Shown in pieces: positions 2,354-64,000 of a DNA stretch of 64,000 nucleotides; position 1 is the first letter of the stretch, and every line of letters starts with the position of its first letter. The position numbers and the translations under genes were made by a program. A model generated the notes under the pieces. The model saw only the letters and a list, made by a program, of their open reading frames with translations. It ran no database searches and was not told the origin of the DNA. The stretch comes from an uncultured Bacteroidales bacterium (lineage in GTDB: Bacteria > Bacteroidota > Bacteroidia > Bacteroidales > P3). The stretch lies in NCBI GenBank assembly GCA_944321735.1, contig CALUMK010000010.1:28040-92039 (forward strand), read 5' to 3'.

Positions 2354-2634
2354 GGCGGTGTGTCATAATGAGCAATCGGCTTCGTTGCTTTGGTTTCACC
2401 GAAAACAGGCTGCACCTCGGCCAAACTCGAACCTATCGGCTGGGTTTGGCTCTCGGTTTGCACTGTTTTTCGAGTCTCGGACTCAGTCACGAACCGCAGT
2501 GCAAGCCGAATGCAGAGGGCATGTCTGCTTGCACTATGCTGAGGCGCAGCCTGCGTTCGCTGCGGAGCAGCAACAGTACGCTCCTTCGTTCTCGCTCTCT
2601 GCGCCTTGCATCTTACTCACTCTGACACACCGCC
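2354..2634 (-). repeat. Hairpin-armed repeat family (R2), copy 1, with enlarged interior
   Basis: Outer arms GGCGGTGTGTCA (2354-2365) and TGACACACCGCC (2623-2634) are perfectly complementary. A short internal asymmetry follows, and then the inner arm ATGAG / CTCAC. Read on the minus strand, the core carries TAAGATGCAAGGCG, GGAGCGTACT and GCAACGAAGC in that order, the same blocks as the copies at 9593-9718 and 63783-63886. This copy is longer than the others because about 150 bp of extra, partly self-complementary sequence sits in the loop. No protein is convincingly encoded. Confidence 0.7.
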
Positions 2635-2765
2635 TGAGATTTATTTCAAATCCCTATTTTGATACACCCTCATCTTTCTCCTAAGCTGCATTTTCTACTT
2701 GAACTTGCTCAGGCAAGCGAAACCCAATCTTGCATTTCCAAACGCAGACACGGTTCCCTATTTAT

Positions 2766-2957
2766 CCCAAATCGGTCATTAGACTTTGGGAGATTGCCCG
2801 CTTGTGTCATGCAGCATGCTTCTCGCCTAGCCGAAGGCGTAGCGGGCTACGTCGAGGCGTAGCGAGAAACAGGATGCGGACAGAAGCGGGCAAGATGCCC
2901 GAATGCCTCATTTTCCTAATCAGAAACGGACTCGGCGTGTCTAATGACCGATTTGGG
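2766..2957 (+). mobile_element. MITE-like element, copy B
   Basis: This 192-bp copy has the same orientation as copy A and the same 19-bp terminal inverted repeats. It is flanked by the direct repeat TTTAT (2761-2765 and 2958-2962). Relative to the other copies it lacks one base about 26 bp from the left end. It stands between topB and the restriction-modification genes, about 345 bp upstream of the methyltransferase start. Confidence 0.9.
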
Positions 2958-3031
2958 TTTATAGAACATACCACATTATTTGTACCTTTGGCTGTAGCGA
3001 AGGTAGCTTGGCCACCATCGTCTAAACAAGC

Positions 3032-3063
3032 TTTGTTTCTAATCTCGACTTTCGCTACCTTTG
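3032..3063 (+). promoter_or_regulatory. Predicted promoter for the methyltransferase-endonuclease operon
   Basis: TTTG at 3032-3035 and TACCTTTG at 3056-3063 are separated by 20 bp, matching the Bacteroidetes -33/-7 promoter pattern. A second -7-like box at 2983-2990 lacks a well-placed -33 partner. The prediction rests on motif match only. Confidence 0.55.
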
Positions 3064-3257
3064 TCTACGGACTCTGGTTGAATCATAGGAAAAACATTGG
3101 ATATAAAGGTTTTTTGAGAAAACCACCACACATGCCAATGGCTATCCAAAGAGCCAGAGAAAAATCAAACAACCTTTTCAAAGGGAGTATGAATCAGCTC
3201 GACCTACTTGGGAGATTCTGCTTTGCATAGTAACTATATGCAGCAAGTCACACGAGT

Positions 3258-3272
3258 CGGCCAGACTGGCCG
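3258..3272. promoter_or_regulatory. Perfect 15-bp dyad upstream of the methyltransferase (possible operator)
   Basis: CGGCCAG-A-CTGGCCG is a perfect dyad around one central base, 29 bp before the methyltransferase ATG. It is GC-rich in an otherwise AT-rich leader. It could be an operator for self-regulation by the methyltransferase or a short hairpin in the mRNA. Its function is inferred only from position and symmetry. Confidence 0.4.
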
Positions 3273-3301
3273 CAAAGTTGAATAAATAGCACAATGAAGC
3301 C

Positions 3302-5176
3302 ATGGCTGAAAAGAAAGAATTTATTTCAAATCGAAAAGCTGTCACATATCTTGATTTGTTTGCAGGGGCTGGAGGATTCAGCGAGGGTTTCATGCAAGCC
3401 TATACGGATGACAAATACTATGACTTCCGTCTGGCGAGCGACATTAACGAGAATTGCGAACTTACGCACCGTATCCGCTATAACAAGATGCTCGGACTTG
3501 ACACAAAATTCATATGCCAAGACATCATGGAGGATTCCTTTCTGCCGAATCTCTTGAAAGAAATCGGCAATCAAGAAATAGATGTCGTCACAGGGGGACC
3601 GAGCTGCCAATCATTCAGCCTCGCAGGACGTAGAAGAAAACTCGATAAGCGCGATGATTTGTTTTATCATTATTTGAAGGTCATCAAAGCCTTACGCCCT
3701 AAATATTTCGTAATGGAAAATGTTAAAGGAATCCTTACCAAAGATGAAGGACGCATAAAAGAGAGGATTCTTCGTGAAATCAGGTCAATCGTTGACGATA
3801 CAAAGATGTACATGTTGTTTGCCTTCATGGATGATGTCCTTAAGCCACAAATGCCCAATTCGCTTTATTACGCTTTATATGTCAGGTTGCATATGGAAAC
3901 ATCCATAGATGATGCAGACAAACAAAATGAAATCTTCTTCAATAACCTTGACCAACAGCTGAAAGATATCACCAAACATCTCCCTTATAGCGTAAGCAAG
4001 AGTGACAAATACGTAAATACAATTCGTCATGGGCTTTTGTTGCTTCAAATGAAGCAGCAGCGTGAAGCCATCCGCAAGCAGGTTATTCAACTGAAAACCA
4101 ACGCTCATATCGACAACGATACCTTTGTAGACGGCTACAATAATATCATCGAGACCCTATCGGACGAACAGATTCGCGAAAAGACTTTGAATGCGATTGA
4201 TAAGATAGCAGAAAGGGGAGATTGCGCAGAAGAAGCCAAAACGCTGAAAAAATCCCTTGAAATCCTTACTTCCACTTTCGATGAGTGTATTGAGTATATC
4301 CAAAAACAACTCCAAGACAATAAAAGCATTCTCGACCATCTGAACGACTTAATGAAGGAGATACGATTATATAACATAGAGGAACCCTTGATACTCCTCT
4401 CTTCCAATTATGGCGTGCCACAGAATCGGGAAAGGGTTGTATTTATTGGCTGCCGGAACGATCAGGAAGTAATCAATGAGATTCCTCCAACAGTTGCAGA
4501 AAAAGACAAGGTAAATGTCTATGAGGCACTTTGGGACTTGAACATGGTTGGCAATGGTGAAACCGCCACTTCGTATAAGAAACCTGAATTGATTCCCGAA
4601 TTTGAAAGCACAAAAATCCAACGAGCTGTTCAAGGCGAACCTGACAAACGCGGGCTTCTATTCTCCGAATGGTCAAAGATTGGCCGTCTAGGGCATCGGT
4701 TCACATTCGATGAAAAACCCTTTTATATACTGAATATGAACGACTTGAATAAACCAACAAAATACCAACGCATGGAACTTTTCAATCATCAGACAAGTCT
4801 TCAGAATAACACTGTGCGTGAACGATTGAAAATCATTGCCAAGTATGGATCCTATGATGATGCAAAAGCAGAACTCCAAGCCAAAGGGGTAGCATCTCAA
4901 AAGCGTAATTATGTAGTCCTGAATCCCCTCGGACAAAGCCCGACTGTCTGCACGATGCCTGATGACTTCATTCATTATTCCGCATACCGTCCTACGACTG
5001 TCCGAGAAATGGCGCGTCTGCAGAGTTTTGACGATTCATTTGTTTTCCAAGGGAAGCGTCAGACCGGAGGCAATAACCGTCAAAAGGAAATACCCCAATA
5101 TACATTGGTAGGCAATGCCGTTCCTCCGCTAATGGCAAGAGCCATCGCCAACACCTTATTGAAACATATTAAATAG
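3302..5176 (+). CDS. DNA (cytosine-5)-methyltransferase of a type II restriction-modification system
   Basis: The 624-residue protein transfers a methyl group from S-adenosylmethionine to carbon 5 of cytosine, protecting the host from the endonuclease encoded next to it. Motif I is DLFAGAGGFSEG (about residues 18-29). The catalytic Cys102 lies in GGPSCQSFS, where Ser replaces the usual proline before the cysteine. ENVKGI (motif VI) is near 139, QNRERVVFIG (VIII) near 375, and VGNAVPPLMA (X) near the C-terminus. About 220 mostly helical residues separate motifs VI and VIII, far more than in minimal enzymes, and this insert may help target recognition or oligomerisation. The endonuclease ATG follows 13 bp after the stop. 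Base composition is visibly AT-richer than the flanking genes, which suggests horizontal transfer. The recognition sequence cannot be read from the protein. Confidence 0.93.
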   Translation: MAEKKEFISNRKAVTYLDLFAGAGGFSEGFMQAYTDDKYYDFRLASDINENCELTHRIRYNKMLGLDTKFICQDIMEDSFLPNLLKEIGNQEIDVVTGGPSCQSFSLAGRRRKLDKRDDLFYHYLKVIKALRPKYFVMENVKGILTKDEGRIKERILREIRSIVDDTKMYMLFAFMDDVLKPQMPNSLYYALYVRLHMETSIDDADKQNEIFFNNLDQQLKDITKHLPYSVSKSDKYVNTIRHGLLLLQMKQQREAIRKQVIQLKTNAHIDNDTFVDGYNNIIETLSDEQIREKTLNAIDKIAERGDCAEEAKTLKKSLEILTSTFDECIEYIQKQLQDNKSILDHLNDLMKEIRLYNIEEPLILLSSNYGVPQNRERVVFIGCRNDQEVINEIPPTVAEKDKVNVYEALWDLNMVGNGETATSYKKPELIPEFESTKIQRAVQGEPDKRGLLFSEWSKIGRLGHRFTFDEKPFYILNMNDLNKPTKYQRMELFNHQTSLQNNTVRERLKIIAKYGSYDDAKAELQAKGVASQKRNYVVLNPLGQSPTVCTMPDDFIHYSAYRPTTVREMARLQSFDDSFVFQGKRQTGGNNRQKEIPQYTLVGNAVPPLMARAIANTLLKHIK

Positions 5177-5189
5177 AAAACGGTTTCAC

Positions 5190-6368
5190 ATGGTCAATAT
5201 GCGTCCATTCACTGACTTTGAGCAGAAGAACTTGAAATTTCTTGTAAACCACAATGTGAAGTTTACACTTGTTGAGATTACCCCTACCGGCTTAGGAAAG
5301 GGCATTCTCGACTCAACTGCCCCTATGCGATCCTATTTCCTTGAAAACGGAATCCACAACTACGAAGAGCAGCTTCAAGGACAAGAACACAAGCAGATGA
5401 AAAACGCTTGCATTCTGACAGAGACCACCAACATTGACACCAAGGCATCTTTCTATCGTCCAAACACAAAGAAAGGTGACCCACGCATGTGGATTTATGG
5501 ATTTGGGTCATACACACAAGGTAATGATATTCATGTCCTTTTCTGGCATGAAAACACATTATACACCATTAATATCACCCGCATTGACATAGAGAAGTGT
5601 TACAACACTGCCATTATCAATCCCATGCAAGAGATTCTAAAAACCATCAACAGAATGGGGAGCTCTGTTTCCGAAGAACTCCTTGGACGCTTCCGTGCGG
5701 TTAAAGACCAATGGTTTGAAACCGAGGTTACCGCCGATACAGGTATCGGAAGAACCATCGAGTCCTTCCTCGGCATCACCATGAACAGCGATAAGACTCC
5801 TGACTACAAGGGTATTGAATTGAAGAGTCACCGAGAGAAAAGAAGCAGCAAGAAGAATGTGCTGTTTACACAAACTCCCGATTGGGACATCAGTACATTG
5901 AAATCCGGGCGTGAAATCGTCGAAAGATATGGCTATGTAAATGCAGATGGATTCAAAACCTACCAGAATACCGTGCAATGCACACCTCCCAACAGCAATA
6001 CGTTATTCCTGAACGTCAACCACTTGAACAAACTCCTTGAACTGCAAGCAGAAAGACAAAACATTGAGGACATTGCCGCATGGAGGTTAGTAAAGTTGCA
6101 CCAACGACTCCTAACAAAACATCGTGAAACATTCTGGATAGAAGTAGAGAACACGCTGAATGATGGCAAGGAGTACTTCCGCTACAAGCAGATTGAACAC
6201 ACAAAGAATCCTAACATCGGCCAATTTGACGTACTCCTTGAGCAGAACATGATCACAGTTGATTTGCTTCTATGCCGCCCAAGCGGGCATGGAGACACTT
6301 ATTCATTCAAAATCAAAAAGAAAGGCATGCCATTGCTCTTCCCTGAAAACGTAATTTATGTCCTATAG
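5190..6368 (+). CDS. Type II restriction endonuclease, MvaI/BcnI-like
   Basis: This 392-residue protein is probably the restriction partner of the upstream methyltransferase. The block TGIGRTIESFLGI (about residues 184-196) followed by PDYKGIELKSHR (204-215) is the signature of MvaI/BcnI-type nucleases. Asp205, Glu210 and Lys212 would form the metal-binding D...ExK active site. Known family members act as monomers and recognise CCWGG or CCSGG; whether this one does is not known. Residues 1-150 are an extra N-terminal domain containing a KKGDPRMWIYG motif, perhaps a DNA-binding or effector domain as in some EcoRII-like enzymes (inference). The start ATG at 5190 could be replaced by the ATG at 5199. 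AT-rich composition matches the methyltransferase. Confidence 0.85.
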   Translation: MVNMRPFTDFEQKNLKFLVNHNVKFTLVEITPTGLGKGILDSTAPMRSYFLENGIHNYEEQLQGQEHKQMKNACILTETTNIDTKASFYRPNTKKGDPRMWIYGFGSYTQGNDIHVLFWHENTLYTINITRIDIEKCYNTAIINPMQEILKTINRMGSSVSEELLGRFRAVKDQWFETEVTADTGIGRTIESFLGITMNSDKTPDYKGIELKSHREKRSSKKNVLFTQTPDWDISTLKSGREIVERYGYVNADGFKTYQNTVQCTPPNSNTLFLNVNHLNKLLELQAERQNIEDIAAWRLVKLHQRLLTKHRETFWIEVENTLNDGKEYFRYKQIEHTKNPNIGQFDVLLEQNMITVDLLLCRPSGHGDTYSFKIKKKGMPLLFPENVIYVL

Positions 6369-6458
6369 CCAATTTGATAAATTTTGCCTATTGGTCCAAT
6401 CTATCCAATACGTCAAAGATACGCAAACGCATCTGCCAAAACATTACACATTATTTTC

Positions 6459-7082
6459 ATGAAAGGCAAAGTGAACTTCAAACCGGGGACGATGATTTAT
6501 CCGTTGCCGGCGGTCTTGGTGGGCTGCGGGGCGAGCGAGGAAGACTACAATCTTATCACCGTTGCATGGACAGGCATCCTCTGCACCAACCCGCCCGTCT
6601 GCTACATTTCCATCCGTCCGGAGCGGCACTCCTACGGCCTTATAAAGAAATACGGCGAATTCACGATAAACCTGACCACTCAGGCTTTGGCCAAGGCTAC
6701 CGACTGGTGCGGGGTCAAGTCCGGGCGGGATTATGACAAATTCAAGGAATGCGGGCTGCAGGCTGCGGCGGGGGAAGAGGTCAAGGCACCGATTGTCGTG
6801 GAATCCCCATTGAGCTTGGAATGCAAAGTGCGGCAGTCGCTGCCTTTGGGTTCGCACGAGGTCTTCATAGCCGATATTGTCAACATCCAAGCCGATGAGA
6901 AGTACATGGATCCGGAAACCGGCAAATTCGACTTGGCCCGTTCCGGACTCTTGGTCTATGCACACGGGGACTACTATGAGACGGGCGAAGCGATAGGCCG
7001 CTTCGGCTGGTCGGTGCAGAAGAAAAAACGGAAAACAAGCAAGCAATCCCCCAAAGGAGGCAATAAAGAAAGCCTTGCCTAA
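6459..7082 (+). CDS. Flavin reductase family protein (flavoredoxin/RutF-like)
   Basis: The 207-residue protein has the split-barrel FMN-binding fold: an N-terminal block with PLPAVLVGC, then ITVAWTGILCTNPPVCYISIR and a GEFTINL strand, as in flavoredoxin-type NAD(P)H:FMN reductases. Such proteins bind FMN in the cytoplasm and pass electrons to partner enzymes; the partner here is unknown. The ATG at 6459 (MKGKVNFKPG) is preferred because the 25 codons upstream in frame are intergenic in character. The C-terminus is lysine-rich. Base composition returns here to the genome norm, which marks the right edge of the restriction island. The gene converges with dedA. Confidence 0.88.
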   Translation: MKGKVNFKPGTMIYPLPAVLVGCGASEEDYNLITVAWTGILCTNPPVCYISIRPERHSYGLIKKYGEFTINLTTQALAKATDWCGVKSGRDYDKFKECGLQAAAGEEVKAPIVVESPLSLECKVRQSLPLGSHEVFIADIVNIQADEKYMDPETGKFDLARSGLLVYAHGDYYETGEAIGRFGWSVQKKKRKTSKQSPKGGNKESLA

Positions 7083-7159
7083 GGAAGCCGAGACCTCTTA
7101 GCACAAGGCTGATGGAAACCGAAGCATAACTGCCGGCATGACAGCCGTCAAGCACAAAA

Positions 7160-7828
7160 CTAAGCTTTTGGGTTCTGCTGTCCTGCCTGAGCTGCCTTGC
7201 GCTTCTTGACTACCCGCTTCACTATAAAATACCCGAGAACCACTACCACGATGGCCAGAATGCCATAGCCAATCTCATGACTGTAGGTCGAAGCCAAGTT
7301 GGATACATCCTCGGTGGTTTCGACATTGGGGAAAGAGACCCGTACCACATAACCCAAAACGGCCAGAACGATATTCCAAAGACCGGCGCCCAGCGTAGTA
7401 AAGAGCAAAAACGTATGCAGCTTCATCTCGGCCAGACCCGCCGGAATGGAAATCAGCTGGCGGACCGCAGGCACCAAACGGCCAAAGAAGGTGGAAACGA
7501 CCCCGTGCTTGCGGAAATATTCCTCGGCATGAGCCACCTTTTCCCCATTGAGCAGGCAAAGATGCCCTACCCGGCTGTTGGCGAACTTATAGACGATAGG
7601 ACGCCCCAGCCATTTGGCCAAGTAATAGTTAATCAACGCGCCCGCATCCGCCCCCAAGGTAGCCACCAAGACCACCAGGACGATATTCATTTCCGAGTCC
7701 GGCCCCAAAGCCAGCCAAGCGGCCGGAGGCACAATCACTTCGGAAGGGAAAGGGATGAACGAGCTTTCAATCATCATTCCCAAGAAAACCGTCCAATAAT
7801 TCAGGTTGTCGAGAAAAAATTCAATCAT
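7160..7828 (-). CDS. DedA family integral membrane protein
   Basis: The 222-residue inner-membrane protein belongs to the DedA/VTT family. These proteins are linked to membrane homeostasis, and several recycle undecaprenyl phosphate or phosphatidylethanolamine across the membrane. The family motif E-x-x-x-P-x-PSE appears as ESSFIPFPSEVIVPP near residues 21-35. The second motif, FFGRLVPAVRQLISIPAG, lies near 114-131 and carries the conserved arginines. Four to five hydrophobic segments are visible, and the tail is rich in lysine (VVKKRKAAQAG). A good promoter lies just upstream on the minus strand. The transported substrate cannot be assigned. Confidence 0.9.
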   Translation of the reverse strand: MIEFFLDNLNYWTVFLGMMIESSFIPFPSEVIVPPAAWLALGPDSEMNIVLVVLVATLGADAGALINYYLAKWLGRPIVYKFANSRVGHLCLLNGEKVAHAEEYFRKHGVVSTFFGRLVPAVRQLISIPAGLAEMKLHTFLLFTTLGAGLWNIVLAVLGYVVRVSFPNVETTEDVSNLASTYSHEIGYGILAIVVVVLGYFIVKRVVKKRKAAQAGQQNPKA

Positions 7829-8146
7829 ATAGCAGCCTGTATTTCGAATTAGAAAGCGCGAAGATAGTGCAAATCGCGTGTAGTGCCAAACTCGCTGTTT
7901 CGGTAAAAATCAAAGGCATCGTGCAAACAGTCCCACCAACCCAACATTCACATCACAATCAATCAATTAAAAAACAAATCACTTCTCACTCAAATCCAAA
8001 TTTCGGCATTTTCATCTTGATTCCACCCCTCCACGCCCCCTGTGACGGCTATCTTCGCCTGCCTTATCGAAAACGGGTACCTTTAACAATACCGTGCCCT
8101 CCTGACGAGGAATGGCAAGACACCTGTCCCGAAGTTGACAAGAACC
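7829..8146. other. Divergent intergenic region between dedA and the DUF2147 gene
   Basis: These 318 bp hold the dedA promoter at the left end. On the right, a TACCTTTA box near 8089 could serve the DUF2147 gene but has no clear -33 partner. No open frame of interest and no strong hairpin were seen. Confidence 0.5.
7859..7890 (-). promoter_or_regulatory. Predicted dedA promoter
   Basis: On the minus strand TTTG (7890-7887) and TATCTTCG (7866-7859) are separated by 20 bp, a close match to the Bacteroidetes -33/-7 pattern. The ATG lies about 30 bp downstream of the -7 box. Confidence 0.5.
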
Positions 8147-8617
8147 ATGCACCTAAAGACACTGCTCTTCGTATTTTCACTTCTGCTGTGCCTGCCGGCC
8201 GGGCTGCAGGCTCAAAGCTTAGGCGCCAAGGCCGACGATATCGTAGGGGATTACGAAGTATTCGACCGAGGGACAGGGGAACGGATGCATCTGAATTTCT
8301 ACCGGGCCGATGACGGAGACTACGAAGCCCGGATTGTCTGGATGGAAAACCCCTTGGACGACTTGGGCAAACCCAAGACCGATGTCCAAAACCCCCGCGC
8401 CGACAAACGCCATATCCCGCTCACCCATGTGGTGGTGGTCCGCAAGCTAAGCTACGATGCCCGCAGCAAGGAGTGGAACGGCGGCCGCGTCTACGACCCC
8501 ACCAGCGGCAAGACCTACCGCTGCGCCATCGAATTCGAGAACGACAGCACGATGAAAGTCAGAGCCTATATCGGCTTCCGGATCTTAGGACGAAGCCTGT
8601 ACTGGAACCGTCTGTAA
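8147..8617 (+). CDS. DUF2147 family exported protein
   Basis: The 156-residue protein has a clear signal peptide (MHLKTLLFVFSLLLCLPAGLQAQ). The mature domain begins DDIVGDYEVFDRGTGER and contains the GGRVYDPTSGKTYRC and VRAYIGFRILGRSLYW blocks that define DUF2147. The fold is a small beta-barrel resembling lipocalin-like domains. Family members are periplasmic or outer-membrane associated, and their biochemical role is not established. The ATG at 8147 is chosen because the upstream in-frame TTG precedes the signal peptide by only four codons. Confidence 0.85.
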   Translation: MHLKTLLFVFSLLLCLPAGLQAQSLGAKADDIVGDYEVFDRGTGERMHLNFYRADDGDYEARIVWMENPLDDLGKPKTDVQNPRADKRHIPLTHVVVVRKLSYDARSKEWNGGRVYDPTSGKTYRCAIEFENDSTMKVRAYIGFRILGRSLYWNRL

Positions 8618-8785
8618 GCCATAAGCCCATCGAACAAGAACCGCCCTCCCGCCATCCGCCCCTAACACATCCATAGCCTCCGATTCGGATTAACCAGTCC
8701 GCCTTTGGATTCTTTTTCGTACATTCGCCAGCCTGAATCCAAGCGATTCCCACGACAAGGGCTTCGCGTGAAAAGTCTTAATCAC

Positions 8786-9604
8786 ATGGTCTACAAATAC
8801 GGCGAACCCGTCAGAATCTACAACCACTACACCGACAAGAAGCACCGGCTCAAAATCAAGACGCTCTGCGACCTATTCAACGATATGGCCGAGCTGCACA
8901 CCTACCGGCAAGGCGTGAACGCGGATATCCTCAACCAGCAAGGGCTCACCTGGATGCTGAGACGAATCCACATCTTCATCCCCGATATGCCCCAGCGCGA
9001 GGAAAGGGTGCTGTTCGAAAGCTGGAATCCGGCCTGCGAAGGGCTGCTGGTGCCCCGGCTCTACAAGGTCAGCGACTGGAACGAGGAAACCGCCGCCTTA
9101 TATAATAATGGTATCACCACCGAAAAAGTCTCCACTGGCGCTTTGCGGGCTTTCGCCTACACCGACTGGATGCTGATCAATTTGGAAGGCCGCCGACCGG
9201 AACGCCCCACCGAGATGATGAAACCGCTGGCGGGATACTACAACGAGGAACTGCCTTTCAAGCCGTCGATGTTCGACCGCCGGGAACAGAAAGGGATGCT
9301 GGATTTCAACCAGCCCGCCTGGCACGAAGCCTGCCGGGTACAAGCCCACTACCGGGACATCGACTTCAACGGCCACGTAACCCAAAGTTCCTATATCCAA
9401 TGGATGATGGATGCCCACTCGGACTCGTTCATGGAAACGCACCGGCTCGATGAGATGGAAGTGATTTACGCCCATGAGCTGAAACCGGGAAGCGAGGTGT
9501 CCGTATGGCTATGCGATGCCGAGGAACACCAAATCTCCTATGCGATCCGGAGTTTGGACGGGGGTATTCTTCATGCGTGGGCCCGTGCCCATTTTGGCTC
9601 GTGA
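8786..9604 (+). CDS. Acyl-ACP thioesterase (tandem hot-dog fold)
   Basis: The 272-residue cytoplasmic enzyme resembles plant FatA/FatB-type thioesterases found in Bacteroidetes. These hydrolyse acyl-acyl carrier protein and set fatty-acid chain length. The first hot-dog repeat contains QQGLTWMLRRIHIFI (about residues 50-64). The second contains YRDIDFNGHVTQSSYIQWMMD (about 188-208), with the Asp, Asn and His layout expected of the active site. The ATG at 8786 (MVYKYGE) is favoured over an upstream in-frame TTG. The reading frame ends with TGA directly followed by TAA, and both stops lie inside the left arm of the R2 hairpin element, so the 3' end of the mRNA is likely folded. Confidence 0.88.
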   Translation: MVYKYGEPVRIYNHYTDKKHRLKIKTLCDLFNDMAELHTYRQGVNADILNQQGLTWMLRRIHIFIPDMPQREERVLFESWNPACEGLLVPRLYKVSDWNEETAALYNNGITTEKVSTGALRAFAYTDWMLINLEGRRPERPTEMMKPLAGYYNEELPFKPSMFDRREQKGMLDFNQPAWHEACRVQAHYRDIDFNGHVTQSSYIQWMMDAHSDSFMETHRLDEMEVIYAHELKPGSEVSVWLCDAEEHQISYAIRSLDGGILHAWARAHFGS

Positions 9605-9718
9605 TAACGGCCAAGCTGCTTCGTTGCGCGAGAAGCTCGAAAATGCTCACATACTAAAGTATGCTCCGCTTTTCTCGTCCTCGCGCGCCTCGCATCTTAG
9701 CCGTTCTGACGAGCCAAA
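9593..9718 (-). repeat. Hairpin-armed repeat family (R2), copy 2
   Basis: This 126-bp element has outer arms TTTGGCTCGT (9593-9602) and ACGAGCCAAA (9709-9718), a small internal mismatch, then inner arms AACGGC (9606-9611) and GCCGTT (9699-9704). On the minus strand the core reads TAAGATGCGAGGCG, GGAGCATACT-TTA-GTATGTG (a local hairpin) and GCAACGAAGCAG. The left arm overlaps the last codons of the thioesterase gene. It lacks a T tract, so it is not an ordinary terminator. Confidence 0.75.
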
Positions 9719-9955
9719 GAGGACGCGCCAAAGAGACAGACACAAGAATTTACTGGCAAAGCGACCGATAAATGCGATCTCATTTTTTTCAAAACCACAT
9801 TCAATACAATTCTTCCGTCCGCAGAACCACACAACAGTAAAAGAAATACCACCAGCAAATAAAAAAACGCCCCCACGTACTTCCCGCACCTGAGGACGTT
9901 TAAAGCCTAAGCCTGCGCACAACGCAGCAGAGGCTTTTCAGAAAAGACCCTGAAA
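9719..9955. other. Intergenic region after R2 copy 2
   Basis: These 237 bp between the R2 element and the convergent beta-helix lipoprotein gene contain a probable terminator for the minus-strand gene near 9862-9902. Nothing else is recognisable. Confidence 0.4.
9862..9902 (-). terminator. Probable terminator of the TonB receptor / lipoprotein operon
   Basis: On the minus strand AAACGTCCTC pairs, allowing two G-U pairs, with GGGGGCGTTT, and a run of seven T follows directly. It lies about 55 bp beyond the lipoprotein stop codon. Confidence 0.5.
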
Positions 9956-22361: not shown

Positions 22362-22377
22362 ATATAGCCGTATTTAA

Positions 22378-22570
22378 CCCAAATCGGTCATTAGACACGC
22401 CGGGGCTGTTTTCGGTTAGGAAAATGAGGCTTTCGGGCATCTTGCCCGCTTCTGTCCGCATCCTGTTTCTCGCTACGCCTCGACGTAGCCCGCTACGCCT
22501 TCGGCTAGGCGAGAAGCATGCTGCCTGACACAAGCGGGCAATCTCCCCAAAGTCTAATGACCGATTTGGG
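22378..22570 (-). mobile_element. MITE-like element, copy C
   Basis: This 193-bp copy is inverted relative to A and B. It has the same 19-bp terminal inverted repeats and is flanked by TTTAA on both sides (22373-22377 and 22571-22575). It stands between divergent yraN and the ROK gene, in the promoter region of both. Confidence 0.9.
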
Positions 22571-22773
22571 TTTAATTCCATCATATACGAATTACTGTCC
22601 GACCCGAAACCGGAACAGAGTCCGCCCTTTATATATTAGTCGCTATTTCCTGCTTTTAACGAACTTTCTTGAAGAAAAAAAACAAAAGCCCAATGCCTAG
22701 GATATCGCATCTTCGTTTTTTTTGTAATTTCGCCGGCTTCAAAAAGCATCTTGTTTCATTAAAAAAGAGGAAA

Positions 22774-39271: not shown

Positions 39272-39397
39272 AGTCACAGTTGCTGAATCATCCTGTCTCC
39301 CAGTGCCGTACACATAGAGAGTCGAAAAATCCGCTCGCATTATCCATTGCGAGATTCCCCCTAAGCGCATTCCATATCTATGACAGAACGCCTTAAA

Positions 39398-39590
39398 CCC
39401 AAATCGGTCATTAGACGCGCCGAGTCCGTTTTTGATTGGGAAAGTGAGGCTTTCGGGCATCTTGCCCGCCTCTGTCCGCAGCATGCTCCTCGCTACGCCT
39501 CGACGTAGCCCGCTACGCCTTCGGCTAGGCGAGAAGCATGCTGCATGACACAAGCGGGCAATCTACCCAAAGTCTAATGACCGATTTGGG
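39398..39590 (-). mobile_element. MITE-like element, copy D
   Basis: This 193-bp copy has the same orientation as copy C. It has perfect 19-bp terminal inverted repeats and the flanking duplication TTAAA (39393-39397 and 39591-39595). It lies 126 bp upstream of rsmI, and one reading frame crosses it without a stop in the rsmI direction and frame. Confidence 0.9.
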
Positions 39591-39700
39591 TTAAAAGCTT
39601 TCCCCCTCTACCGGCCTGAAAAAACGGGGCAAAATTACAAAGATTCACGCTTCGATTCCAATGGCGAATTGTACAGGGGAAACCATCCTCAACATCCGAG

Positions 39701-40481
39701 GGGGCGTTTGCAGTGCCGGTCCGCCAGTGCATCCAGCGTCCGCAAGTGCGGATTTTCATCTGAAAAGCCCTTTGACAAGCTGCTGGCTCAAACCTGCAAA
39801 CGCCTAGTTCGAGGGGTTTTCTCTTTCTTTTGCCACCTTTTCTTTCTCTTTCTTTCTCTTTTCGCCCCTTTCAAAAGAGAAAGAAAACCAGCCTTGCGTG
39901 GAGGGGCGTTTGCAGTGCCGGCCCGCCAGTGCATCCAGCGTCCGCAAGTGCGGATTTTCATCTGAAAAGCCCTTTGGCAAGCTGCTGGCTCAAACCTGCA
40001 AACGCCTGGTTCTAGGGGTTTTCTCTTTCTTTTGCCACCTTTTCTTTCTCTTTTCGCCCCTCTCAAAAGAGAAAGAAAACCAGCCTTGCGTGGAGGGGGC
40101 GTTTGCAGTGCCGGCCCGCCAGTGCATCCAGCGTCCGCAAGTACGGATTTTCATCCGAAAAGCCCTTTGGCAAGCTGCTGGCTCAAACCTGCAAACGCTT
40201 GGTTCGAGGGGTTTTCTCTTTCTTTTGCCACCTTTTCTTTCTCTTTTCGCCCCTCTCAAAAGAGAAAGAAAACCAGCCTTGCGTGGAGGGGGCGTTTGCA
40301 GTGCCGGCCCGCCAGTGCATCCAGCGTCCGCAAGTACGGATTTTCATCCGAAAAGCCCTTTGGCAAGCTGCTGGCTCAAACCTGCAAACGCTTGGTTCGA
40401 GGGGTTTTCTCTTTCTTTTGCCACCTTTTCTTTCTCTTTTCGCCCCTTTCAAAAGAGAAAGAAAAGGACTTTTTGTACATT
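39701..40481. repeat. Four-unit tandem repeat of 193-202 bp made of nested hairpins (R3)
   Basis: Units begin at 39701, 39903, 40096 and 40289, each with GGGGCGTTTGCAGTGCCGG. The first unit is 202 bp and the others 193 bp. Within a unit, GGCGTTTGCAG pairs with CTGCAAACGCC about 85 bp later, a small CCGCA-TGCGG or variant hairpin and a TTTTC-GAAAA hairpin lie between them, and a 15-bp homopyrimidine/homopurine stem (TTTTCTTTCTCTTTT with its complement) closes the unit around CGCCCC(T/C)(C/T)TC. Units are nearly identical, so the array is recent or kept uniform by recombination. It separates rsmI from the GT117 genes and ends at the GT117 promoter. Direct adjacency without unique spacers excludes CRISPR. 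Confidence 0.85.
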
Positions 40482-62511: not shown

Positions 62512-62551
<40 letters not shown>

Positions 62552-63603: not shown

Positions 63604-63698
63604 CCTTTTTCATAAATTACTTTTCACGAAGAGCCGGGGCGACCCGGCTTTTCTATTATACGAGACACCGAGCCGAAAGACGGCGAAGCCTCTCTACT
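63604..63698. other. Short spacer with the terminator of the 63001 gene
   Basis: This 95-bp spacer lies between the membrane protein gene and the right-edge tandem repeat. Apart from the terminator it contains only a small GCCG-CGGC inverted repeat near 63672. Confidence 0.4.
63632..63655 (+). terminator. Rho-independent terminator of the membrane protein gene
   Basis: AGCCGGG (63632-63638) pairs with CCCGGCT (63643-63649) around a GCGA tetraloop and is followed by TTTTCTATT. It is 28 bp after the stop codon. Confidence 0.88.
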
Positions 63699-64000
63699 AA
63701 AAAGCGTTTAGAACGAGTGGATTCAAGGCATCGCGAGGGTGAGAAAAGCAAAATCCACTCCATAACGGTAAAAAGCGTTTCCGGCAGGCAGATACGAGGC
63801 GTCGAGCCGCCGGGCAGGGAGGGAGCGTACTTCTGTACGTGACCGACCTGCACAAGGCTCGCAACGAAGTAGATGCAATAACACCGTAATAAAAAGCGTT
63901 TAGAACGAGTGGATTCAAGGCACCGCGAGGGTGAGAAAAGCAAAATCCACTCCATAACGGTAAAAAGCGTTTCCGGCAGGCAGATACGAGGCGTCGAGCC
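63699..64000. repeat. Right-edge tandem repeat of 192 bp (R4), truncated by the window
   Basis: One full unit (63699-63890) is followed by the first 110 bp of a second (63891-64000), with a single mismatch seen between them. Each unit starts AAAAAGCGTTTAGAACGAGT and contains a 9-bp inverted pair GAGTGGATT / AATCCACTC. After a second AAAAAGCGTTT it contains an R2-family core. The array probably continues beyond the window. No protein is supported. Confidence 0.85.
63783..63886 (+). repeat. Hairpin-armed repeat family (R2), copy 3, inside the R4 unit
   Basis: The blocks AGATACGAGGCG, GGAGCGTACT-TCT-GTACGTGA and GCAACGAAGTAG occur in the same order and similar spacing as in the copies at 9593-9718 and 2354-2634, on the opposite strand. 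Outer arms are weaker here. A fourth copy begins at 63975 and is cut off by the window end. Confidence 0.65.

Follow-up and report, generated by a model that had tools for sequence, protein, structure and literature searches.

ERIC-like palindromic repeats with a constant hairpin tip and a fixed orientation at stop codons in an uncultured Bacteroidales bacterium

ERIC (also IRU or RU-1) is a long imperfect palindrome of about 127 bp that encodes no protein, is present in many copies and carries a central inverted repeat (GGAGC-N-TAC / GTA-N-GTGA). The part of the source used here gives the ERIC1R and ERIC2 primers as GGAGCTTAC..GTAAGTGAC (PMC3359277). The ERIC passages of a 2024 review place the element in two families, Enterobacteriaceae and Vibrionaceae, and name no mobiliser for it (PMC10969869); according to the corresponding section of a 2007 review, a likeness of such repeats to the ends of insertion sequences (IS) was, except for RUP, either not sought or not found, and the mechanism is a matter for later study (PMC2229807). 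Here we analyse a window of 64,000 nucleotides (nt) of an uncultured Bacteroidales bacterium (contig CALUMK010000010.1, positions 28,040 to 92,039), which contains three copies of a repeat with a conserved core, and we find ERIC to be the closest known system, the window family being an ERIC-type element outside the enterics.

The resemblance is centred on the tip of the hairpin: the ERIC primers lie on the tip core that is common to the window family, which also has the central inverted repeat and the length of ERIC, and the AAGGC / CAACG blocks of a second loop are found both in the aligned genome copies (alignment A1, see below) and in ERIC-type copies of Klebsiella (such as L088 and L292). 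The arms, by contrast, are unrelated, as the window family has neither TATACCC..GGGTATA nor TTGCAACTTGAAG, which were seen in Klebsiella copies and which we take to be the ERIC-specific arms. Because of these arms of other sequence the family is ERIC-like and not ERIC in the strict sense. It further differs in the variable tip letter (mostly G or A, T in ERIC), in the placement of the copies of the window's genus at stop codons in one orientation, and in a core that also occurs outside Enterobacteriaceae and Vibrionaceae.

The observation of a repeat family with a conserved core, made in a sequence-only reading of the window, was confirmed at the scale of the genome. The core GGAGCRTACTNNNGTAYG has 74 exact matches in the 2.71-Mb genome of the window (G000), while the reversed pattern, used as control, has none. 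The 71 copies with full flanks were read and, after two were dropped (>93% identical to another), the remaining 69 were aligned (A1) and used for a covariance model of 131 positions. At E <=0.001 it found at least 113 matches in G000, at least 113 in its close relative G011 and at least 119 in G001, all of which are lower bounds, since 150 candidates were scored per genome. No match was obtained in G008 or G012, which belong to the window's genus (as do G001, G010 and G011). DNA of Candidatus Pullibacteroides excrementavium (Bacteroidales) agrees with locus L005 of G000 at 97.8% over 1609 nt, which makes Pullibacteroides the probable genus of the window. Presence is patchy: 13 of 61 relatives hold the family (11 of these 13 in the genus), and a longer pattern was found in 3 of 296 Bacteroidota genomes. 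A public metagenome-assembled genome (MAG) labelled Ruminococcus flavefaciens (L087 / G068) has its repeats at the same places as G010, and its label looks wrong. In G000, the ends of contigs C10, C16, C17 and C37 lie inside or beside repeat copies, hence the assembly probably breaks at copies.

The copies of the window and their parts are as follows (the strand of a copy is the orientation in which GGAGC is read first):

2354-2634, minus strand: copy 1, a type I element split by two inserts (placed by eye).
2380-2388, minus strand: GCAACGAAG block of copy 1, at the second conserved internal loop.
2575-2584, minus strand: 5' half of the core of copy 1, GGAGCGTACT (read by eye).
2602-2634, minus strand: 5' outer arm and AAGATGCAAGGCG block of copy 1.
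8786-9604, plus strand: acyl-ACP thioesterase gene, with its last codons and TGA (9602-9604) within the right arm of copy 2.
9591-9722, minus strand: copy 2, a complete element with type I arms; no element at the same site in the relative G001.
9619-9627, minus strand: GCAACGAAG block of copy 2, 3' side of the internal loop.
9647-9667, minus strand: core of copy 2, GGAGCATACTTTAGTATGTGA.
9686-9698, minus strand: AAGATGCGAGGCG block of copy 2, 5' side of the internal loop.
63695-63769, plus strand: coreless truncated unit upstream of copy 3, recurring at 63887.
63765-63894, plus strand: copy 3, in a tandem array at the contig end; the next unit replaces its outer right arm.
63822-63842, plus strand: core of copy 3, GGAGCGTACTTCTGTACGTGA.
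63861-63869, plus strand: GCAACGAAG block of copy 3.
63887-64000, plus strand: second round of the array, a truncated unit followed by the 5' part of another element, which is cut by the contig end.

The range 2354-9718, which had been presented as one feature, thus covers two separate copies. The genome-derived model scores copy 2 at 107 bits (9591-9722) and copy 3 at 96 bits (63765-63894), and gives a broken match of 24 bits over 2526-2638 in copy 1, which is 281 nt long because two inserts break it (apical loop, ~2495-2574; inner 3' side, ~2392-2470; by eye) and in which about 80 nt separate the 5' half of the core from its 3' half (GTTCGTGA..). No stop codon of an opposing gene was seen adjoining this copy. 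The apical-loop insert (2495-2574) reads GTTGCTGCTCCGCAGCG on the minus strand, and a similar insert in the apical loop of a G011 copy (L209) points to a possible repeat preferring hairpin tips. The complementary outer right arm of copy 3 is lost in the window and retained in G011 (L203). The model also gave a weak match (18.5 bits, E 0.0008) within a methyltransferase gene, at 4271-4385, which was taken as chance. Rfam 15 gave no match at gathering thresholds in the window and none at E <=10 for 9500-9800.

Among the blocks said to be shared by the three copies, GGAGC(A/G)TACT and GCAACGAAG are present in all of them, whereas AAGATGCGAGGCG is exact in copy 2 only (one mismatch in copy 1, two in copy 3) and, searched alone with <=3 mismatches, is uninformative (21 found, 21.1 expected). 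The arm of copy 1 (GGCGGTGTGTCA..TGACACACCGCC) is not unique and represents a recurrent arm type (GGYGTGTCAGAAYGGG..CCCRTTATCACACRCC); the small internal asymmetry described near TCTGAC is real (CAG/ATC) and common to type I arms (by eye). Both elements of the first part of the window fold better than dinucleotide shuffles (copy 2 as RNA, z -7.9, 0/200; copy 1 as DNA, z -8.3, 0/200).

The fold was assessed on the 69 genome copies, and not on the three window copies alone. Under the RNAalifold structure of A1, standard pairs occupy 92.1% of 1517 cells (72.0% when shuffled), and about 89% (own arithmetic) if the six tip pairs are excluded; five invariant tip pairs are no evidence, because the search pattern fixed the tip letters. 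Outside that pattern, TGA directly follows the tip in 71 of 71 copies and the second internal loop ([A/G]AGGC/CAACG) is likewise conserved, while the outer arm columns mostly stay below 60% for any base, so that the ends are the least conserved part of the element (71 copies). Changes on both sides were registered for 16 of 22 pairs (13.4 in shuffles, of which 3/500 reach 16), and the covariation score of 0.568 compares with 0.199 in shuffles and <=0.102 in slid versions, a control that leans towards the structure because the structure was derived from the same sequences. The proposal that a structure is kept under sequence change was supported by the changes on both sides and by the recurrence of the same layout with other arms in other phyla. 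Part of the covariation is exchange of whole modules, given that inner hairpin and outer arm move separately: inner stems agree at >=86% in 79 copy pairs, and in 27 of these pairs the identity of the outer arms is under 50%. Differences between ortholog pairs are too few to count (by eye, one double change, L023 vs L217, and one drifting pair, L021 vs L219). In L051 and L213, two relatives have the right half of the element in common and differ in the left half and flank, which places a rearrangement point near the hairpin tip.

The two strands of the element are not equivalent. With helices called from Watson-Crick pairs only and single mismatches read on the GGAGC strand, G-T exceeded A-C (33 vs 12) and G-A exceeded T-C (21 vs 4), and the RNA energy was lower for this strand in 68 of 71 copies. 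With the core excluded, the G-T to A-C ratio was 30:11 in G000, 25:8 across 38 foreign loci (36 of which have the lower energy on the GGAGC strand), 21:1 in Listeria, 7:0 in Rickettsia and 11:0 in Fulvivirga. Mismatch asymmetry and energies therefore indicate that the constrained form is the single GGAGC strand in five of the six sets; the earlier suggestion that one particular strand folds is supported, and by this asymmetry the strand that folds, as RNA or as single-stranded DNA (ssDNA), is the GGAGC strand.

The copies also have a polar position. With genes called mechanically (open frames >=80 codons), the stop codon of an opposing frame was found 42-64 nt to the right of the core in 48 of 68 copies of G000, and at the mirrored left position in 5 of 68 (two-sided sign test, 7e-10). 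Outside G000, where the counts cover a subset of the copies listed by the searches, stop adjacency to the right and to the left was 16 vs 3 of 23 in G011 and 10 vs 0 of 17 in G001 (sites partly common with G000 in both), and 14 vs 1 of 24 in G010. The corresponding values were 4 vs 0 of 20 in Listeria, 2 vs 0 of 10 in Klebsiella, 4 vs 1 of 9 in Rickettsia and 0 vs 0 of 10 in Fulvivirga; these four taxa pooled gave 10/49 right and 1/49 left. TA occurs at the ends of part of the copies (by eye). The sequence-only reading had overlooked this polarity, together with the relation to ERIC and the whole inner-hairpin exchange that lies behind part of the covariation.

A scan of a species-genome collection for the core returned at least 116 stretches among the matches listed, and viral contigs contained the element pattern in 22 stretches. 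Across 34 genomes chosen among the matches listed, the general core GGAGCNTAC-N4-GTANGTGA has 1 to 58 copies each; 17 of them (including G068, of the window's genus) hold 5 to 58, with none for the control in 34/34 and a chance expectation below 0.02 per genome (own estimate). The highest numbers were registered in Listeria newyorkensis and Porphyromonas somerae (58 each), Scalindua (57), a Rickettsia endosymbiont and a Deltaproteobacteria MAG (51 each) and Fulvivirga (49). We examined 39 loci chosen by the core alone, one per label (38 of them outside the genus; several are from enterics or Rhizobiales and are not independent): in 32 the pairing of the arms beyond the core surpasses every one of 200 shuffles, and 25 loci have one flanking loop motif and 20 the other, where 5.9 and 6.4 would be expected. 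The covariance model matches 41 of 41 foreign loci, as expected because they were chosen for the core, and reaches >=40 bits in 25 of the 41 (core-only matches, ~22-27 bits), among them the Klebsiella copy L088 with 43.4 bits.

The classical core GGAGCTTACATAAGTAAGTGA, which is contained in the ERIC primers, is present in 2 of 33 Klebsiella copies. Unannotated repeats that match a Klebsiella element (241-nt query) are present in 5375 of 5426 Escherichia coli genomes (the best matches cover ~60% of the query at ~77% identity), and these repeats are probably ERIC. Pantoea, Enterobacter and Aeromonas have a second enterobacterial-type family with the same core and with inner blocks CCAGCGC / CACTGCC (by eye; L100, L104, L112, L119, L134, L135 and L142).

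Sites were also compared between related genomes. Copy 2, at the thioesterase gene, is present in G000 and G011, and the site is empty in G001, where the protein ends in AWARAKYTA, as opposed to AWARAHFGS where the arm overlaps the last codons (own reading). Insertion into the loop of a resident terminator is unsupported here, as the hairpin of the empty relative is unrelated. Twenty-two locus pairs were compared between relatives by alignment: several are identical or nearly so, and in six (L043, L055, L066, L042, L068 and L058; by eye) a different element stands at the same gene end. In all six, one genome has the complete element of which the other retains a 5' remnant farther from the gene (only ~15 nt of arm in L042 and L068), and another complete element adjoins the stop codon where the remnant is left; in five of the six, the outer arms of the complete element resemble those of a still older part (all by eye). 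The outer left arm recurs (>=21/24) in the left flank of 11 of 69 copies; the same degree of match was reached in 3 of 552 comparisons when other loci were used, and in the right flank for 1 of 68.

We reason that these repeats are best read as a non-autonomous, ERIC-type mobile palindrome that spreads through its folded GGAGC strand, a reading in which we place moderate confidence. They would be the Bacteroidales branch (probably Candidatus Pullibacteroides) of a superfamily that includes ERIC and whose members are small palindromic mobile elements without protein. The GGAGC strand folds into a hairpin of 110-130 nt in which the tip (GGAGCNTAC-N4-GTANGTGA, containing a GAG/TGA internal loop) is constant and a second loop ([A/G]AGGC / CAACG) is conserved, the sequence of the stems being free provided that they pair. 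New copies would be placed so that this strand has its 3' end at the stop codon of a gene on the opposite strand or overlaps that codon, and a later arrival at the same gene end would leave only the 5' part of the older element, at a greater distance from the gene. Spreading would proceed through the folded single strand, as ssDNA or RNA, with the fold probably kept because well-folded copies spread and not because the neighbouring gene needs it, and the enzyme is probably one that the host provides or that acts in trans.

Several results weigh against this account. No shared enzyme emerged from 15 high-copy genomes, several of which are incomplete drafts: Y1_Tnp is absent from 9 (and from 4/4 tested of the window's genus), DDE_3 from 12 (among them 4/4 of the window's genus) and RVT_1, present in 8, from 7 (G000, G001, G011, Klebsiella, AS22, Rickettsia and Asticcacaulis; loss, missing contigs or outside supply may account for this), and all three are missing from G000, G001, G011, AS22 and the Rickettsia endosymbiont. 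These absences reject Y1, RVT_1 and DDE_3 as a shared resident mobiliser. Klebsiella shows no G-T bias (3:3), further pair types are not above shuffles in A1 (45 vs 43.9; 187/500), in seven of the 39 loci (L079, L092, L108, L111, L114, L117 and L118) the pairing fails to exceed every one of the 200 shuffles, and L301, a copy of classical ERIC, reaches 30.5 bits, little more than the core alone. Stop adjacency is strong in the window's genus only (Fulvivirga, 0 vs 0 of 10), and no clean target-site duplication was found: of the 37 readable stop-adjacent copies (copies whose 9 nt after the stop recur in the left arm), only 15 have a stop triplet at both ends. The case for mobility is drawn from differences between related genomes, and the cross-phylum core could in principle reflect convergence on a common binding target.

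The foremost rival holds that the repeat acts in cis as RNA and is maintained by the host at the 3' ends of genes (as a terminator, or for messenger RNA (mRNA) stability or translation control) and copied because it is useful. It would fit with copies that directly follow stop codons and with the A and T runs at the bases of type II arms (by eye), and according to the ERIC passages of two reviews, the transcript levels of Yersinia genes that have ERIC at the 3' end are altered by it in a manner that depends on its orientation (PMC2229807, PMC10969869). However, the 3' end of the GGAGC strand faces the opposing stop codon, therefore the mRNA of the adjacent gene carries the complement of the folded strand (the fold is antisense to it), from which we argue that the message of this gene is not what maintains the fold; the mismatch asymmetry is likewise contrary to selection on the mRNA strand. 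Left neighbours, whose transcript could carry the GGAGC strand, are directed either way (34 of 71 towards the element, 25 away, 12 uncalled; mechanical open frames), and presence varies among close relatives and extends to only 3 of the 296 Bacteroidota genomes. We regard this explanation as unlikely.

Somewhat more doubtful is a bacterial equivalent of a short interspersed nuclear element (SINE), in which RNA of the GGAGC strand would be reverse-transcribed at the target, primed from the coding strand of the gene at its stop codon. Such a process predicts the fixed 3' junction at the stop, the antisense orientation and a tolerance of G-U on the GGAGC strand, and G-U or U-G cells are indeed common in helix 2 (22/207) and in one pair of helix 4 (29/68); yet they are rare in helix 1 (5/276) and absent from helix 5 (0/276), older copies lose their 3' part and not their 5' part (by eye), and RVT_1 is missing from nearly half of the high-copy genomes (the seven named above).

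A miniature inverted-repeat transposable element (MITE), with conserved terminal repeats on which an IS630-type DDE transposase acts by cut and paste at a TA target, is quite improbable. Many copies have TA at their ends (by eye), and ERIC is listed as a MITE with TA termini in the relevant part of a review (PMC2229807), but in the present family the ends vary from copy to copy within one genome and are the region of lowest conservation, and DDE_3 was found in only 3 of the 15 high-copy genomes and in none of the four of the window's genus. That the repeat is the end of an IS was also set aside, its ends being least conserved; no IS library was searched.

Very little credence can be given to a REP-like element moved by a Y1 transposase (RAYT / IS200 family) with GGAG as the tag at the hairpin foot. 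The layout of tag plus hairpin is similar, the repeats are intergenic and may supply stop codons, as REP termini often do according to the part of the source used (PMC3733652); however, a single hairpin of 110-130 nt is not a unit of 20-40 nt, the tag sequence differs from that of REP / REPIN with RAYT, and the genomes tested of the window's genus lack the Y1 transposase.

An attC-like site of an integron or another tyrosine recombinase, one of the options named in the sequence-only reading, we practically dismiss (no search for an integrase was made), for despite the single-strand fold with unpaired positions, the sequence-free arms and some tandem arrays, conservation resides at the tip and two internal loops and not in terminal core sites (the outer ends being least conserved), and most copies are solitary at gene ends across the genome. 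The conserved structure and the folding of one strand are what stands of that first interpretation.

Returning to the mobile palindrome, we tentatively propose, as a possibility that we hold well short of likely, that ERIC and the palindromic repeats of about eight phyla form one superfamily of structure-addressed elements. Its members may spread as a folded GGAGC strand recognised by shape (the tip and two loops), with a mobile inner hairpin, outer arms rebuilt to pair at each site, a 3' end joined at stops with fixed polarity, and arrays of 5' parts that record past insertions. By record label the phyla are presumably Bacteroidota, Pseudomonadota, Bacillota, Planctomycetota, Desulfobacterota, Campylobacterota, Actinomycetota and that of Vampirovibrio, some on one or two copies.

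Repeats that go by other names could be drawn into the same comparison. The Rickettsia endosymbiont, whose copies may be Rickettsia palindromic elements (RPE), has its cores in palindromes of ~130 nt with arm sequences that differ from those of the window family, and 4 of 10 examined copies overlap an open frame. Matches in Mesorhizobium, Rhizobium, Agrobacterium and Phyllobacterium, to which we presumably may apply the name RIME, have the core inside long arms, but no AGGC/AACG loop motif was detected in the four Rhizobiales. In the passages used of two reviews, RPE is described as a family of its own (PMC2229807, PMC10969869). BrickBuilt of Porphyromonas gingivalis is also a MITE-like repeat of Bacteroidales; it is built of a 23-nt tandem repeat of other sequence, and it was rejected as the identity of the family, given that the main text of its description, as far as available, contains neither GGAGC nor GTACGTGA (PMC4596501). 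Within the literature searched (the primary ERIC, RIME and RPE papers were outside its scope), the features that look new are the stop-codon polarity, the asymmetry of the strands and how far the superfamily extends.

The window holds further repeats near these copies. A second family of ~203 nt with terminal inverted repeats of ~24 nt (TTTAACCCAAATCGGTCATTAGAC) is present at 2081-2286, 2761-2961, 22373-22575 and 39390-39595, its copies being 93-97% alike where paired; in G001, one such copy lies inside an old arm of an ERIC-like element (by eye). Two of its copies, together with copy 1, precede a C-5 cytosine methylase (3302-5176) that lies beside an MvaI/BcnI-type restriction endonuclease (5190-6368). 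A unit of 193 nt is repeated four times in tandem at 39701-40481 (81-98% like the reference copy), and a long AG dinucleotide run occupies 62514-62550.

With a core common to distant phyla, the movement of ERIC-type elements becomes a comparative question with many separate expansions, in which the strand asymmetry indicates the strand to seek and the stop-codon polarity the landing place of new copies. It also has a bearing on ERIC-PCR, which is used outside the enterics: genomes labelled Listeria, Pantoea and Porphyromonas hold ERIC-type cores, mostly with G or A where the ERIC primers have T.

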